Source: Kocuria turfanensis (GTDB taxonomy: Bacteria > Actinomycetota > Actinomycetes > Actinomycetales > Micrococcaceae). From it: a DNA stretch of 64,000 bases. Below the pieces are notes generated by a model, which was given only the letters and a program-made list of their open reading frames with translations, did no database searches and was not told the origin of the DNA. Positions 3,210 through 23,441 of the stretch are shown here, piece by piece. Location of the stretch: contig NZ_CP014480.1 in the NCBI RefSeq assembly GCF_001580365.1, positions 744,001 through 808,000 of the forward strand. Direction: 5' to 3'. The first letter of the stretch is position 1, and each line of letters begins with the position of its first letter. A program made the position numbers and the translations under genes.

Positions 3210-4280
3210 TCAGAGCAGTCCGTGCTCGGCGAGCTGGCGGGAGATGGAGGCGCCGTCGTTGCCCTCGATCCACAGCGTCCCCTCGGGGATGCTCACGCGC
3301 CGCTCCTCGTTGACCAGCGGATTGCCGGCCAGGACCGCCTCGGCCGGGGACAGGTTGCGGATCACGATCGCGGCCACGTGGTCCGGGTAGCGGTGCACGA
3401 ACCCGCTGTAGATCTCGGGGTCGTGCTGGCCGTCGTCGCCGATGAGGATCCAGCGCACCTCCGGGAAGTTCCGGGCCAGGCGCTCCAGGTTCTGCACCTT
3501 GTGGGCCGAGCCGGCCCGGAACCAGCGGTCCGTGGTGGGCCCCCAGTCGGTGAGCAGCAGGGCCCCGTCCGGGTAGGCGTTGCGGGTGAGGAACCGGCGC
3601 AGGGTGGGCGCCACGTTCCAGGCGCCCGTGGAGAGGTAGACGAACGGCGCCTCGTGGTGGCGGTGCAGCAGCCGGTCCATCATCACGGCCATGCCCGGGG
3701 TCGGGGTGCGGGCGTGCTCGTTGAGCACGAAGGAGTTCCAGGCCGCCAGCAGGGGGCGGGGCAGAGCGGTGACCATGACGGTGTCGTCGACGTCGGAGAC
3801 CACGCCGATCCGCTGCTCGTCGGCGACGACGAACACCCGGGCCTCGACGACGTCCGAACCGTCCGTCTGCATCCACACGGTGTGCTCGCCGGGGGGCAGG
3901 GACACCTGCAGGTCGACGTCGACCACTCCGCCCTTGTCGGCCACCAGGTGGAACTCGTACTCGTCGATCCAGACGTTGACGTGGGCGAAGGCGATGGGCA
4001 CGGAGGTGAAGGAGCGCCAGCCACGGATGGACTCGGCGCTCTCGTCGGTGGACTCGATGAGCCCGCGGGTCTTCAGCAGCGCCCGGCCCAGCACCCGCAC
4101 GTGGTGCTCGGACCCGTAGCCCTCGAAGGCGACCATGACGGGGATGTCGCCCCGGGTCTCGGCGCGGCGCTGGCGGAACCGGTGGAACCGCTGCTCGAGG
4201 CGGTAGCCCACGTTGATGGCTTCCTCGGTGACGTGGTCGACGGTCTGCAGGAGGTCCGAGCTGTCGGATTTCTTCGCCAT
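3210..4280 (-). CDS. App1-family phosphatase domain protein (DUF2183)
   Basis: The 356-residue protein matches the App1/DUF2183 family, whose yeast member is a phosphatidate phosphatase. The HAD-like catalytic motif DVDDT is at 163-167, with 'STGAWN' and 'LIGDDGQHDPEIY' as the later HAD motifs. The N-terminal half (about 45-155) is the family's beta-rich region with a 'VAFEGYGS' start. There is no signal peptide or membrane segment, so it is probably cytosolic. ATG at 4280 follows an AACACT element by six bases, again leaderless-like. Phosphatidate hydrolysis is known for the family but not shown here. Confidence 0.82.
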   Translation of the reverse strand: MAKKSDSSDLLQTVDHVTEEAINVGYRLEQRFHRFRQRRAETRGDIPVMVAFEGYGSEHHVRVLGRALLKTRGLIESTDESAESIRGWRSFTSVPIAFAHVNVWIDEYEFHLVADKGGVVDVDLQVSLPPGEHTVWMQTDGSDVVEARVFVVADEQRIGVVSDVDDTVMVTALPRPLLAAWNSFVLNEHARTPTPGMAVMMDRLLHRHHEAPFVYLSTGAWNVAPTLRRFLTRNAYPDGALLLTDWGPTTDRWFRAGSAHKVQNLERLARNFPEVRWILIGDDGQHDPEIYSGFVHRYPDHVAAIVIRNLSPAEAVLAGNPLVNEERRVSIPEGTLWIEGNDGASISRQLAEHGLL

Positions 4281-4315
4281 GCGCCCAGTGTTTCACAGCG
4301 CCCGCCCAGGCCACG

Positions 4316-4373
4316 GCACGCCCGCGGGGCGCTGCGGGCCGGTTCCCCGGCCCGCAGCGCCCCGCGGGCGTGC
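4316..4373 (-). terminator. Perfect 27-bp hairpin terminator after fdhA
   Basis: The arms 4316-4342 and 4347-4373 are perfect reverse complements around a TTCC loop. The hairpin begins 22 bp after the fdhA stop and has no U-tract, as is common for GC-rich actinobacterial terminators. It isolates fdhA from the App1 gene that follows on the same strand. Confidence 0.85.
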
Positions 4374-4395
4374 GTCGTCGCGCTGGGTGCTGCGG

Positions 4396-5613
4396 CTAGT
4401 TCTTGATGTAGCCGTTGGGGTTGAGCACGTACTTCGTGGCGGCCCCGGCGTCGAACTCGGCGTAGCCCTTCGGCGCCTCCTCCAGCGGGATGGCCTTGGC
4501 GTTGACGGCCTTCGCGATCTGGATCTTGTCGTGCAGGATCGCCATCATCAGCTGCCGGTTGTACTTCATGACCGGGCACTGGCCGGTGGTGAAGGACAGG
4601 GACTTGGCCCAGCCGGTGCCGAGGCTGATGGACAGGGAGCCCTTCTTGGCGGCCTCGTCGACCGCCCCCGGGTCCCCGGTGACGTAGAGGCCCGGGATGC
4701 CCAGGGCCCCGCCGGCGGCGGTGATGTCCATCAGGGAGTTCAGCACGGTGGCCGGGGCCTCGTGGGAGGCGTCCTTGCCGTGCCCGCGGGCCTCGAAGCC
4801 CACGGCGTCCACGCCGCAGTCGACCTCCGGCACGCCGAGGATCTGCTCGATCTGCTCGGCCGGCGCGCCCTTGGACACGTCCACGGTCTCGCAGCCGAAG
4901 CTGCGGGCCTGGGCCAGGCGCTGCTCGTTCATGTCGCCCACGATCACCACGGCCGCCCCGAGCAGGTGAGCGGAGGCCGCCGCGGCCAGGCCGACCGGGC
5001 CGGCGCCGGCGATGTAGACGGTGGAGCCGACCCCCACTCCGGCCGTGACCACGCCGTGGTAGCCGGTGGGCAGGATGTCGGAGAGCATGGCCAGGTCCAT
5101 GATCTTCTCCAGGGCCTGGTCCCGGTCCGGGAACTTCAGCAGGTTCCAGTCCGCGTAGGGCACCAGGACGTACTCGGCCTGCCCGCCGACCCAGCCGCCC
5201 ATGTCCACGTAGCCGTAGGCGGAGCCGGGCCGGTCCGGGTTGACGTTGAGGCAGATGCCGGTCTTGCGCTCCTTGCAGTTGCGGCAGCGCCCGCACGAGA
5301 TGTTGAAGGGCACGGAGACGATGTCCCCGGCCTTGATGAACTCGACGTCGGGACCGACCTCCACGACCTCGCCCGTGATCTCGTGACCCAGGACCAGGTC
5401 GGTGGGGGCCGTGGTGCGGCCGCGGACCATGTGCTGGTCGGAGCCGCAGATGTTGGTGGCCACGGTCCGGAGGATGACCCCGTGCGGGACCTTTCGGCCG
5501 ATGTTGGCCGGGTTGATCCCCGGCGCGTCCTTGAGATCGAACTCGGGGTAGTTCGTGTCGATGACCTCGACCTTGCCGGGACCCTTGTAGGCGACCGCTC
5601 TGTTGCCTGCCAT
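4396..5613 (-). CDS. fdhA: Glutathione-independent formaldehyde dehydrogenase
   Basis: This zinc-dependent medium-chain dehydrogenase oxidises formaldehyde to formate with tightly bound NAD and is independent of added thiols. The 405-residue protein has catalytic-zinc ligands in 'NICGSDQH' (C56, H61) and 'GHEITGEVV', a structural zinc cluster 'SCGRCRNCKERKTGIC', and the Rossmann 'GAGPVGLAAAA'. The 'GHGKDASHEAPATVLN' insert and the C-terminal 'NPNGYIKN' are typical of the FdhA branch and separate it from ordinary alcohol dehydrogenases. Two ATGs are adjacent (5616, 5613). The AGAGG ribosome site is only 2 nt from the first and 5 nt from the second, so the second was chosen. It is a single-gene unit closed by a strong hairpin. 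Confidence 0.9.
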   Translation of the reverse strand: MAGNRAVAYKGPGKVEVIDTNYPEFDLKDAPGINPANIGRKVPHGVILRTVATNICGSDQHMVRGRTTAPTDLVLGHEITGEVVEVGPDVEFIKAGDIVSVPFNISCGRCRNCKERKTGICLNVNPDRPGSAYGYVDMGGWVGGQAEYVLVPYADWNLLKFPDRDQALEKIMDLAMLSDILPTGYHGVVTAGVGVGSTVYIAGAGPVGLAAAASAHLLGAAVVIVGDMNEQRLAQARSFGCETVDVSKGAPAEQIEQILGVPEVDCGVDAVGFEARGHGKDASHEAPATVLNSLMDITAAGGALGIPGLYVTGDPGAVDEAAKKGSLSISLGTGWAKSLSFTTGQCPVMKYNRQLMMAILHDKIQIAKAVNAKAIPLEEAPKGYAEFDAGAATKYVLNPNGYIKN

Positions 5614-18329: not shown

Positions 18330-21300
18330 TCAGCCCTGGCCGGCGGGCCGGCCGCTGGTGAGGTCCTCGGCCTTGACACCGACGCCCACGACGGTCGGCC
18401 CGTGGCCGGCGGGAGCGCGCTGCGGAAGCTCCGCGGCGGTCGTCGCCTCGTGCCGCCCGCCCTCGGCGGCGGCCGCCTGACCGGCGGTCACCTGGGCCTC
18501 CCCCGGTCGGGCGGCCGGGGCCGAGGCACGGCGGGAGCGCCGGCGCGGACGCGCCGGCTCCGCGGGCGCCTCGGCCGTCGTCCCAGCCGGTGTCCCGGTG
18601 GAGGGCCCGGTCGGGGGCACGGCCGGGGCCTGGCTCGTGGCCTGCCGCTCCCGGGCGGGGGTCCGCGCCGGCTCGGCCCTCTCGTCCTCGGGCTCGGCCG
18701 CGGGAGCACCGGCGTCGTCCGCCGGCGCGGCGGTCCGCTGCTCCGGTGCCCGCTGGTCGAAGGCCTCCGCCAGCGAGTCCAGGCTCAGTCGGGGCGCCTC
18801 GGCGGGCTCCTCGGCGACGGGCGCGTGGCCCTGCGGGAGCTCGATGACCTCGCCCTTGATCGTCAGGCGCGAGCCCTGCTCGGCTGCGGGCTCCTCGACG
18901 GCGGGCGCGGGCTCGGCCGGGGGTCGGGTCTCCTCCGTCTCCGGCTGCTCGGCGGCGGTCTCCGCGCCCTGGCCGCGGTTGCGGCTGCGCTTGCCGCGGC
19001 GCTTCTTCCGCGAGCGCCCCGAGCCCTCGGGGCGGGACTCCGCCGGGGCGGCCGGCTCCTCGGCGCGGGGCGTCTCCGGCTCCTCCGGGGTCTCGTGGTG
19101 GGTCGCGGCCGCGATGGTCGCGAACGCCGTGCGCGCGGCCTCGGCCTTCGCCTTCTCCGCGGGATCCGGCTCGGCGGTCCGGGCCTCCGGGCGGGCGGGC
19201 TGCTGCTCGCCCTGGCCGCGGCGGCTGCGCTTGCGGTCGGTGCGGTTGGGCCGCTGGTCGCGGATCTCGCCCGGGACGCCGCCGGTGCGGCCCTCCAGCG
19301 GGTGGTCGTGCACGACGACGCCGCGGCCGGCGCAGTGCTCACAGGGCTCGGAGAACACCTCGAGCAGGCCGGTGCCCATCCGCTTGCGGGTCATCTGCAC
19401 CAGCCCGAGGGAGGTCACCTCGGCCACCTGGTGCTTGGTGCGGTCCCGTCCCAGGCACTCCACCAGGCGGCGCAGCACGAGGTCGCGGTTGGACTCGAGC
19501 ACCATGTCGATGAAGTCGATGACGATGATGCCGCCGATGTCCCGCAGCCGCAGCTGCCGCACGATCTCCTCGGCGGCCTCCAGGTTGTTCTTGGTGACGG
19601 TCTCCTCGAGGTTGCCCCCGGAGCCGGTGAACTTGCCGGTGTTGACGTCGACGACCGTCATGGCCTCGGTCCGGTCGATCACGAGCGAGCCGCCCGAGGG
19701 CAGGAAGACCTTGCGGTCGAGAGCCTTCTCGATCTGTTCCTCCACACGCTGGTTCACGAACAGGTCCTCGTCCTCGTCCCACTTCTGGAGCCGGTCGAGC
19801 AGGTCCGGCGCGACGTAGGTCACGTACGCCTCGATGTTGTCCCACGCCTCGTCGCCCTGGACCACCATGGTGGTGAAGTCCTCGTTGAAGACGTCGCGGA
19901 CGGTCTTGATGGTCAGGTCCGGCTCCGCGTACAGCATCTCCGGGGCCAGGGTCTTGGTGGAGCTCGCCCGTTCCTGGATCTGCTCCCACTGGGCCCGCAG
20001 CCGGTTGATGTCGTGGGTGAGCTCCTGCTCGGAGGCGCCCTCCGCGGCGGTGCGCACGATGACGCCCGCCCCGTCCGGCAGGCGGTCCTTGAGGATCTTC
20101 TTCAGCCGGGCGCGCTCGACGTCGGGCAGCTTCCGGGAGATCCCGGTCATCGAGCCGCCCGGGACGTAGACCAGGTAGCGGCCGGGCAGGGAGATCTGGC
20201 TCGTGAGCCGGGCGCCCTTGTGCCCCACCGGGTCCTTGGTGACCTGCACGAGCACCGAGTCCCCGGACTTCAGGGCGACCTCGATCCGGCGCGGCCCGCC
20301 CTCGAGGCGGGAGGCGTCCCAGTTGACCTCGCCGGCGTAGAGCACCGCGTTGCGGCCCCGGCCGATGTCGATGAACGCCGCCTCCATGGAGGGCAGCACG
20401 TTCTGCACCTTGCCCACGTAGACGTTGCCGATCAGCGAGTCCTGCTGCGTGTGGGAGACGAAGTGCTCGGCCAGCACGCCGTCCTCGAGGACGCCGATCT
20501 GGATCCGGTTGTCCTTCTGCCGCACGAGCATCCGCCGTTCGACGGACTCGCGGCGGGCGAGGAACTCGGCCTCGGTGATGACCTGCCGGCGGCGGCCGGT
20601 CTGGCGGGACTCACGCCGACGCTGCTTCTTGGCCTCGAGCCGGGTGGAGCCCTTCACCGCCACGACCTCGTCGACCGTGGCGCTCTCCGCGGCGCGCGGG
20701 GCGCGGACCCGCGTGACGGTGTTGGGCGGGTCGTCGTCGCTGCCGCCCACCAGCTCCATGTCCACGTCCCCGCGGCGCCGGCGACGGCGCCGGCGGCTGG
20801 TCACGCCCCCGCCGGTGCCCTGTTCGGCCTCCTCGGCCTCCTCGGCGAGCTCGGCCGCCTCCGCCTCGGCCCCGTCGCCCGGGTCCTCGGCGGTCGCGTT
20901 CTCCTCCTGCTGCCGGCGCCGGGCCTCGCGGCGGCGGGCCGCCCGCTGCTGCGCGGCCTCGCGCAGCTCGTCGAGGTCCGGGGCGTGGAACATGAGCGAG
21001 GTCGCGGTGACGGCGGCCGCCAGCGGGGTGTCGGACTCCTCCGGCTCCTCGGCGTCGCCGGTGTCCTCCTGGCCGGAGCCCTCCGGGCTCGGCACGGGGC
21101 CCCCCTGGGAGACCTCCTCCGCGGGCGGAGCGGCGGTCCCGGCGGCAACGGTCTCGGCGGGCTCCTGGCCGGAGCCCTCCGGACCCCGCGTGGAGCTCAC
21201 CGCGGGAGCCTCCTCCGAGGGCGCGGCAGCGGCCTCGGAGGCAGCGGTCTCGGCGGGCTCCTGGCCGGAACCGTCCGGGTCCCGCGTGGAGCTCACCGTG

Positions 21301-21875: not shown

Positions 21876-22291
21876 ATACAGCTGTGCTCCATGCCGCGGT
21901 ACGCCGTCCGTACCCGGTCCCCGCAGCGGCTTGGTCGGCGTTTCGCCGGTGGGGTCCACGCGGCGGCCAGAAGTCCTGTGCGTACCCGCCGCGTCCCGCA
22001 CGCCACGCGAACGGGCGGGGACGGCAACGAGCCAGTCCGGGGCTCCGAGCCGCTGCTCGCAAGGGCAACGGTCTTGGGCCGGCGGCGGACGCGCTCAATC
22101 CGATGAGAGCCGCGGGTCCTGCCGACCGGCGTCGAAGTCCGGCTGGGCCGAGATTCCGCGTACGGGCGGGCTCGACCGTGGTCAGTATCTCACAGACGCC
22201 CGGTTCCGACCCGGATTGTCCTCGTCACGGCCCGCAACCGGCCCGCCGGGCTCCCCGGGAACTCCGGGGAGCATCCCCTAGGATCGGGCCT
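21876..22291. other. Divergent intergenic region between rne and the VKOR gene
   Basis: There is no gene in these 416 bp. A possible rne -10 (GATACT on the minus strand, 22199-22194) would give a 5' untranslated region of roughly 310 nt, in keeping with autoregulated rne leaders elsewhere, but the -35 is weak. The right end holds the VKOR promoter. Confidence 0.4.
22279..22284 (+). promoter_or_regulatory. -10 element (TAGGAT) for a leaderless VKOR transcript
   Basis: TAGGAT ends seven bases before the GTG at 22292, with no ribosome-binding site between them. Confidence 0.5.
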
Positions 22292-22924
22292 GTGACCACC
22301 TCTGCCTCAGCCCTCGACGACTCCCCCGCCCAGCGCTCCGAGCCCGCCGCGCGCGCCGACCGGCGCTGGGGTCTCGTGGCCCTCATGACCGGACTGCTCG
22401 GCTTCTACGGCGCGGCCACGCTGGTCTACGAGCGGGTCCAGCTCTTCCTCGACGCCGGCCACCGCACCAGCTGCGACATCAACTCCTGGCTGTCCTGCGG
22501 CACGGTCATGCGCACCCCGCAGGCCGAGGCCTTCGGCTTCCCCAACCCCTTCATCGGCCTCGTCGCCTACGCGGTCGTGGTGGCCGTGGCCCTGGCGGTG
22601 CTGGCCGGGGCCCGGTTCGCGGCCTGGTACTGGTGGGGCGTGCAGATCGGGGTGACCCTGGGATGGCTGTTCGTGCTGTGGCTGTGGTACCAGACCACGT
22701 TCGAGATCAACGCCCTGTGCCTGTACTGCATGCTCGTCTGGGTGATGCAGACGGTGCTGGTGGTGCAGACCACCGCCCGGAACCTGCGCGCGGGTGTCCT
22801 GCCCGCCCCGGCCGCCGTGGCGCGCGGGGCGGAGCAGTGGGCGTGGTTCGCGGCCGCCGCGCTGCTCGTGCTGATCTTCGGGACGGTGCTGATCCGCTTC
22901 GCCGGCGTCATCTTCCCGGCCTGA
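22292..22924 (+). CDS. Vitamin K epoxide reductase family membrane protein
   Basis: Bacterial VKOR homologues reoxidise a DsbA-like partner and pass electrons to quinone, driving disulfide formation outside the membrane. The 210-residue protein has four to five membrane helices, the loop pair C61 and C69 ('SCDINSWLSCG') and the active-site C143-L-Y-C146. The key serine-like 'NPFIGL' segment is also present. GTG at 22292 is seven bases after a -10 element. No DsbA partner with a signal peptide is adjacent. The 3' end overlaps the end of the rearranged ndk reading frame by 17 bp on the other strand. Confidence 0.92.
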   Translation: MTTSASALDDSPAQRSEPAARADRRWGLVALMTGLLGFYGAATLVYERVQLFLDAGHRTSCDINSWLSCGTVMRTPQAEAFGFPNPFIGLVAYAVVVAVALAVLAGARFAAWYWWGVQIGVTLGWLFVLWLWYQTTFEINALCLYCMLVWVMQTVLVVQTTARNLRAGVLPAPAAVARGAEQWAWFAAAALLVLIFGTVLIRFAGVIFPA

Positions 22925-23441
22925 TCTGCCCGGCGTGCTTGTTCCGGACCGACCCGCGTCGCCCGCCCGGGCGCGGCGCCGGACGACGGCGGCCACCACG
23001 GGGCCGCTGAGCATGAACTGCACCAGCGGCTCGAAGAAGGGCTTGCCCCGGTTCGGCGGACTCCGGGGAGTCCGAGCCGTGCACGATGTTCTGCTGGACC
23101 TTCTGGCCCCAGTCCCGGCCGAGGTCGCCGCGGATGGTGCCCGGCGCGGCGGTGGTCGGCTCGGTGGTCCCGGCCAGCGAGCGGAAGCCCTCGATCACCC
23201 GGTCGCCCTCGACGACGGCGGCCACCACGGGGCCGCTGAGCATGAACTGCACCAGCGGCTCGAAGAAGGGCTTGCCCCGGTGCTCCGCGTAGTGCTCCTC
23301 GAGCACGGCGCGCTCCGCGTGGAGCAGCCGCAGGTCGGCCAGCCGGTAGCCCTTGGCCTCGATCCGGGCGAGGACCTGGCCGGTGAGGCCGCGGGCCACC
23401 CCGTCGGGCTTGACGAGGACGAGGGTGCGTTCCGTGGTCAT
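22908..23441 (-). CDS. ndk: Nucleoside diphosphate kinase with an aberrant C-terminus
   Basis: Ndk balances NTP pools by phosphotransfer through a histidine. Residues 1-130 are canonical: 'TLVLVKPDGV', 'FMLSGPVVAAV', 'RSLAGTTEPTTAAPGTIRGD' (last part TIRGD) and the catalytic H121 in 'NIVHGSDSPESAE'. Family members then end after about eight more residues (REI..WF type). Here codon 131 enters a 71-bp copy of the gene's own interior in a different frame. The ORF runs on for 47 unrelated residues rich in Arg/Gly/Pro, ending at 22908 inside the convergent VKOR gene. All catalytic residues remain, but the C-terminal strand and tail that help pack the oligomer are lost. The promoter TAGGCT (23487-23482) overlaps the upstream stop codon. 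Confidence 0.85.
   Translation of the reverse strand: MTTERTLVLVKPDGVARGLTGQVLARIEAKGYRLADLRLLHAERAVLEEHYAEHRGKPFFEPLVQFMLSGPVVAAVVEGDRVIEGFRSLAGTTEPTTAAPGTIRGDLGRDWGQKVQQNIVHGSDSPESAEPGQALLRAAGAVHAQRPRGGRRRPAPRPGGRRGSVRNKHAGQIRPGR
22982..23052. repeat. Direct repeat copy B (ndk interior duplicated at its 3' end)
   Basis: These 71 bp are identical and in the same orientation to 23211-23281, with an offset of 229 bp. It begins right after the codons for 'SPESAE' of ndk and replaces the expected gene end. The next 57 bp up to the VKOR stop resemble neither gene end. Confidence 0.95.
23211..23281. repeat. Direct repeat copy A (resident ndk segment)
   Basis: This is the in-frame original, encoding roughly residues 54-77 of Ndk (RGKPFF...SGPVVAAVV). 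Its duplicate is at 22982-23052. Confidence 0.95.

Follow-up and report, generated by a model that had tools for sequence, protein, structure and literature searches.

Since the ndk gene (NDP kinase) in this stretch of Kocuria turfanensis DNA runs into a copy of its own interior just before its expected end, we wondered what kind of event could have produced such an arrangement, and whether it belongs to the strain or to its assembly. The stretch (the window) is 64,000 nucleotides long and corresponds to C1:744001-808000 of a 4.16-Mb genome in five contigs. The features that matter here are the following, in window coordinates.

22262..22924, plus strand: convergent vitamin K epoxide reductase (VKOR)-like frame, with an end that resembles that of relatives
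22908..23051, minus strand: tail of 47 codons and a stop as read from the translation, replacing the REIGIWF-type end and with Gly132 at His+11
22925..22981, no strand assigned: residual ndk/VKOR intergenic DNA without a strong hairpin (best stem of 7 pairs between codon 130 and the VKOR stop)
22982..22994, no strand assigned: junction 2, GACGACGGCGGCC (GGCCGCCGTCGTC on the coding strand), similar to the hairpin arm in relatives
22982..23052, minus strand: 71-bp copy at the ndk end, where all 35 relative loci have the normal ndk end instead
23052..23441, minus strand: ndk codons 1-130, intact core with active-site His121 (NIVHGSD), matching NF001908 over residues 1-130
23211..23281, minus strand: donor segment from which the copy was taken (ndk nt 161-231); it is collinear with relatives' ndk

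Direct comparison within the window showed that 22982-23052 and 23211-23281 are identical at 71 of 71 nucleotides, at a spacing of 229; an exact donor segment, as looked for under template switching or templated insertion, is therefore present 229 bp away. Against the whole 4.16-Mb genome the 71-mer gave two full matches and one partial match elsewhere (34 nt, 85%). The ndk frame itself runs from 23441 to 22908 and encodes 177 amino acids, which are canonical to residue 130 (SPESAE) and are followed by 47 unrelated ones. In profile searches, residues 1-130 matched NF001908 with an E value of 6.7e-51 (171.8 bits, cut-off 155) and the window Ndk matched PF00334 with 156.5 bits (cut-off 27), and the active-site histidine of the NxxHGSD motif is kept as His121 in NIVHGSD. 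Codons 1-130 are ~95.6% identical at the nucleotide level to those of the nearest genus genome, G016 (18 of 390 nt differ, including one at the junction), and the encoded residues differ at eight positions up to codon 130. Only one residue of this core, Q65, differs from both G016 and the normal-length homologue P0004; it falls within the copied segment, and both copies have it. Because the core is free of stops and frameshifts and the two copies are still identical, the event appears to be young. The tail is rich in Arg and Pro, and no homologue among the best 120 of 7998 scored spans more than 82% of the 177 residues. A PF00334 search of this genome found no second ndk, the second match being the copy itself. 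A normal ndk end misplaced elsewhere in the assembly was also considered and rejected, as a degenerate EREIGIWF pattern gave 0 exact matches genome-wide.

An ndk match was obtained in 27 of 27 genus genomes, this one included. In all 35 relative loci examined (those of the 26 other genus genomes and nine named loci, some of which are the same DNA) the gene is closed by REI(G/A/S)IWF plus one residue and then a stop, the ends being REIGIWFA (20), REIGIWFG (11), REIGIWFS (2), REIAIWFA (1) and REISIWFG (1). The closest normal-length homologues, P0004 and P0005 (98% identical over the shared part), end in REIGIWFA. The original prediction had described the two identical segments, an Ndk that is canonical to residue 130 before 47 unrelated residues, a usual tail of eight residues and a normal gene end that is nowhere nearby; all of these descriptions held, and a comparison with relatives, as it had proposed for the nearest sequenced strain, showed normal ends throughout. 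Among the other sequences, three proteins from outside the window (P0001, P0002 and P0003; 294-296 residues) consist of two tandem Ndk domains, each with HGSD and an REI-type end. The ndk of a record titled Vibrio cholerae strain 35D (L043) ranks among Arthrobacter ndk, and this record is probably mislabelled or contaminated. In a record titled Kocuria polaris MS50-16 (L099) the ndk protein is only 78% identical to that of the window and the species label is doubtful, the value for the other K. polaris record being 92%.

On the far side of the copy, part of the convergent VKOR-like frame matches Streptomyces DNA annotated as vitamin K epoxide reductase; a plasmid search gave two weak VKOR matches only. 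Between ndk and this convergent gene, each of the six close relatives examined in detail has a long inverted repeat rich in GC, with stems of 19, 22, 16, 25, 15 and 25 pairs in a simple stem scan, whereas the best stem in the window has 7. Stems of at least 12 pairs were found in 20 of 28 distinct relative stretches and shorter ones in the other 8, one of which is a contig cut at 41 nt. A scan for consensus terminators, which demands a T run, gave no match in the window or in L007. Codon 130 and the VKOR stop lie 128 nt apart in the window and 101-154 nt apart in the six relatives; besides the copy, 57 nt of the window interval remain. From these comparisons it would follow that some 45-95 nt were replaced by the 71, and that the hairpin was formerly present in this lineage. 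The original prediction had ndk losing its 3' end to a duplication; the end is indeed lost, but by a replacement rather than a simple duplication, with the ndk end and the hairpin both missing and the spacing to the VKOR stop kept.

The two edges of the copy differ in what they share with the presumed earlier sequence. At junction 2 (22981/22982, on the VKOR side) the copy ends in GGCCGCCGTCGTC, which corresponds to ndk codons 73-77 and is like the hairpin arm of relatives. At junction 1 (23052/23053, on the ndk side), judged from relatives, about 1 nt is shared at most; the stretch ACCGGGGC, which had been proposed as shared at the junction, is the repeat's own end. We scored each of the 390 ndk positions by the longest stretch ending there that is also found in the intergenic DNA of relatives. 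The copied tract ends at ndk nt 231. In 14 of the 28 distinct relatives the best or tied best position was one of nt 229-232, the match there being 7-12 nt long; in the remaining 14 the best position was elsewhere in ndk, with 7-9 nt matched. When summed over the six close relatives, positions 232, 230, 229 and 231 ranked at the top (48, 45, 44 and 42), narrowly above 164, 274 and 329 (41 each). If only stretches ending exactly at nt 231 are considered, L004 and L006 match over just 4 nt; L006 was undistinctive in the scoring, and L011, which is cut short, stands outside the six-relative sum. The relatives share ancestry and hence are not independent. With the relatives standing in for the pre-event sequence, these results support, although they do not prove, that the guiding homology sits at junction 2, at the 22982 end.

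We consider the best account to be a polymerase template switch at the ndk/VKOR hairpin, as a real mutation of the strain that probably left Ndk inactive. We assign it a probability of about 0.45; it would prove correct slightly less than half of the time, an artefact having about equal odds. The anatomy, the gene end and hairpin that are missing by comparison with relatives, the junction match and the missing glutamate (see below) can be read from the DNA, and from these we infer a polymerase, an ancestral sequence, a loss of activity and an order of steps. The polymerase would have copied ndk as far as codon 130 and then left the template. Its growing end would have been re-set 229 bp back, at ndk nt 161, from where 71 nt would have been copied, up to GGCCGCCGTCGTC in codons 73-77. 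Landing on the like sequence in the hairpin's far arm would have skipped the real ndk end and the rest of the hairpin, and the outcome would be a 177-residue Ndk without the catalytic-site glutamate and the C-terminal helix. Template switching at hairpin-forming repeats is known in E. coli, and in the quasipalindromes described in passages of PMC7202029 a hairpin-forming inverted repeat is likewise the site at which the polymerase switches and returns. There, however, the new strand serves as its own template and the inverted repeat is made more perfect, whereas in the window the template would be a direct-orientation segment 229 bp off and the hairpin is lost. The earlier suggestion of slippage or a template switch was right in kind, but it placed the homology at the wrong junction and missed the hairpin and the glutamate. 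Templated insertions at end-joining junctions, which are known mainly from eukaryotic polymerase-theta joining, resemble this locus in combining a short copy of nearby DNA at the junction with loss of target DNA; here, in contrast, a search for Ku in this genome found none (0/1), and one junction lies at a match to the hairpin arm. Because Ku was not found, classical bacterial end joining is unlikely.

Just as probable as a real template switch is a library or assembly artefact, in which the 71 nt came from a chimeric read or from gap filling and the strain itself has a normal ndk. The GC-rich hairpin would be hard to read, and a chimeric read could arise when a hairpin arm misprimes in vitro on the ndk interior. 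In favour of this explanation, P0004, P0005 and the 26 other genus genomes end ndk normally. We surveyed local copies in 1.664 Mb of this genome (the window and 80 stretches), with 1.2 Mb of two single-contig relatives as controls. We counted exact local direct repeats that were isolated, 32 nt or longer and out of coding register, leaving out tandem arrays, the tRNA-Glu pair and diverged paralogues. This gave 3 copies in this genome and 0 in the controls, a difference that is not significant alone (chance ~0.2 at equal rates, from 1.664/2.864 Mb, cubed) and to that extent weakens the artefact explanation. The copies, all 100% identical, are those of ndk (71 nt, spacing 229), L134 (57 nt, spacing 116) and L144 (132 nt, spacing 245). 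A genome-wide excess was not borne out: the first 864 kb had given four candidates, one of which is the tRNA-Glu pair in L147, and no other isolated copy of this kind (out of register, 32 nt or longer) turned up in the 800 kb sampled next.

Several kinds of repeat were left out of the count. Those in coding register were in L118, L121 (83 nt, in a Pro/Ala-rich protein), L127, L128, L131, L142 and L151, with further rows in L238, L265 and L274. Two rows, both out of register, were diverged multi-block or distant pairs, namely L125 (51 nt at a distance of 1763) and L158 (blocks at 929). Tandem arrays were in L146, L247 and L267, and the tRNA pair in L147. Out-of-register repeats of 20-31 nt were not counted either; there were several in this genome and, among the controls, three in G014 and none in G010. 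The L147 pair consists of two tRNA-Glu genes (3248-3323 and 3485-3558) with 74 identical nt, 235 bp apart; G016, G014, G003 and G022 match across both genes, an arrangement that is common to relatives. In L146, positions 4270-4422 hold a 40-bp tandem array of several copies, out of coding register.

The L134 copy (19199-19255 and 19315-19371; C1 about 2819199) is a perfect 57-nt copy near the start of a gene for a secreted-type coiled-coil protein, a label that is our reading of the translation. Its frame stays open, which speaks against an artefact, and like genes of G003 and G005 are without the copy. In L144 (1283-1414 and 1528-1659; C1 about 401283) a perfect 132-nt copy of the interior of a 105-residue gene starts one base past the stop codon of that gene, leaving it intact; the gene was matched in 24 of 27 genus genomes, this one included. 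If a steady natural process were at work, aged copies should be expected, unless they are lost fast. A blastn search of the sample of this genome gave no clear single-block pair of this kind at 88-99% identity, the pairs in that range being in L127 (44 nt, 88.6%, inside a longer 81% block and paralogous), L147 (the tRNA genes) and L238 (an array). An 81-nt pair in L248 (4566-4645 and 4697-4775; 86% identity, spacing 131, 22-nt exact core) may be a local copy that has aged. The presence of three perfect copies (57-132 nt) without clear intermediate identities is consistent with an artefact.

The assembly itself points both ways. A run of 27 N at L134:13954-13980, the sole one in the 1.664 Mb, has the same 13 nt on both flanks as a direct repeat, with a different open frame on either side, inside a glycosyltransferase-like frame (named from its translation). 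It is likely a scaffold gap between overlapping contig ends, although N can also stand for withheld sequence, and it favours an artefact in that the 1.2 Mb of the two control genomes contain 0 non-ACGT letters. Against an artefact, there is only this one N run in the whole sample and there are only five contigs, and the 3.74-Mb C1 spans several equal-scoring copies of a transposon-type DnaA-related gene (presumably transposon ATPases of the IstB type), which suggests long-range data.

Two further explanations would also make the lesion real, and we give each of them little credence. In the first, a genuine mutational process, still active in this lineage and independent of Ku, would insert perfect directly oriented copies (57-132 nt) of neighbouring DNA at hairpins and at the edges of genes, the ndk lesion being its latest product. 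The three copies described above are what it would account for, and the scarcity of aged copies and the non-significant excess over controls weigh against it. The second is a two-step mutation, a 229-bp tandem duplication from ndk nt 161 followed by a deletion between the short match in the second copy and the hairpin arm. Its end product would be the same, short direct repeats often give rise to deletions between them, and a spacing of 229 suits a tandem unit; however, it takes two rare events and an intermediate seen nowhere, and with these data it is indistinguishable from a one-step switch.

With the template switch taken as a real mutation, its consequence for Ndk activity can be judged from conserved residues. 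Glu at His+11 was present in 117 of 117 homologues shorter than 200 residues among the best 120 of 7998 scored, a count that excludes three two-domain proteins of 294-296 residues, whereas the window Ndk has Gly132. The window protein is without this glutamate (human E129) and also without the C-terminal REIxxWF helix. In human NME1, E129 hydrogen-bonds the active H118, as described in part of PMC7461546, and a passage of PMC6115381 states that NDPK activity is completely lost in E129A. Because the His+11 glutamate and the C-terminal helix are lost, the 177-residue product is probably inactive. AlphaFold2 agrees, with a mean pLDDT of 73.5 for the normal P0004 and 47.1 for the window protein on nearly the same alignment, and a helix at 126-137 versus 126-128, the window tail being of low confidence; this comparison is weak, as the alignments are shallow (28-29 rows) and the normal protein too has a low-confidence stretch at 86-117. 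The M. tuberculosis Ndk (1k44; PMC3589492) is likewise a short Ndk from an actinobacterium and lacks the tail of 15 residues that longer hexameric enzymes carry. It is aligned up to REIALWF near its end; the window protein lacks the REIxxWF stretch itself and has 47 unrelated residues. The loss of Ndk activity need not be lethal: passages of PMC11980595 describe ndk as non-essential in B. subtilis, and E. coli mutated in ndk, pykA and pykF together as viable. Pyruvate kinase is present in this genome. That the new tail is functional, with selection maintaining a changed Ndk that is active or regulated, is very improbable, since an open core in which only Q65 departs from both G016 and P0004 is set against the lost glutamate, the drop in AlphaFold2 confidence with the shortened helix, and an Arg/Pro-rich tail that takes the protein beyond the 82% span of its best 120 homologues of 7998. 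Of the two outcomes originally offered, an altered Ndk or a wrong assembly, both were reasonable, but a working variant is improbable given the loss of glutamate and helix.

Altogether, whether the ndk lesion is a real mutation or an artefact, its simplest explanation is that a polymerase switched template at this hairpin, either in the living cell or in vitro. Biologically it would be a single mutation, probably with loss of function, that arose by a mechanism of known type; the assembled sequence itself may be in error here. If it is an artefact, a strong GC-rich hairpin between two convergent genes can give rise to self-copies that are perfect but false, and here such a copy would destroy a housekeeping gene in a genome scored 100% complete. 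If it is real, the strain would be a natural mutant that is probably without NDP kinase activity, and the junction would clearly document a template switch that skipped a hairpin, in a bacterium in which no Ku is detectable. Should a process that pastes local copies be at work, K. turfanensis would provide a natural isolate without functional Ndk, a state that may itself disturb nucleotide pools and raise mutation.
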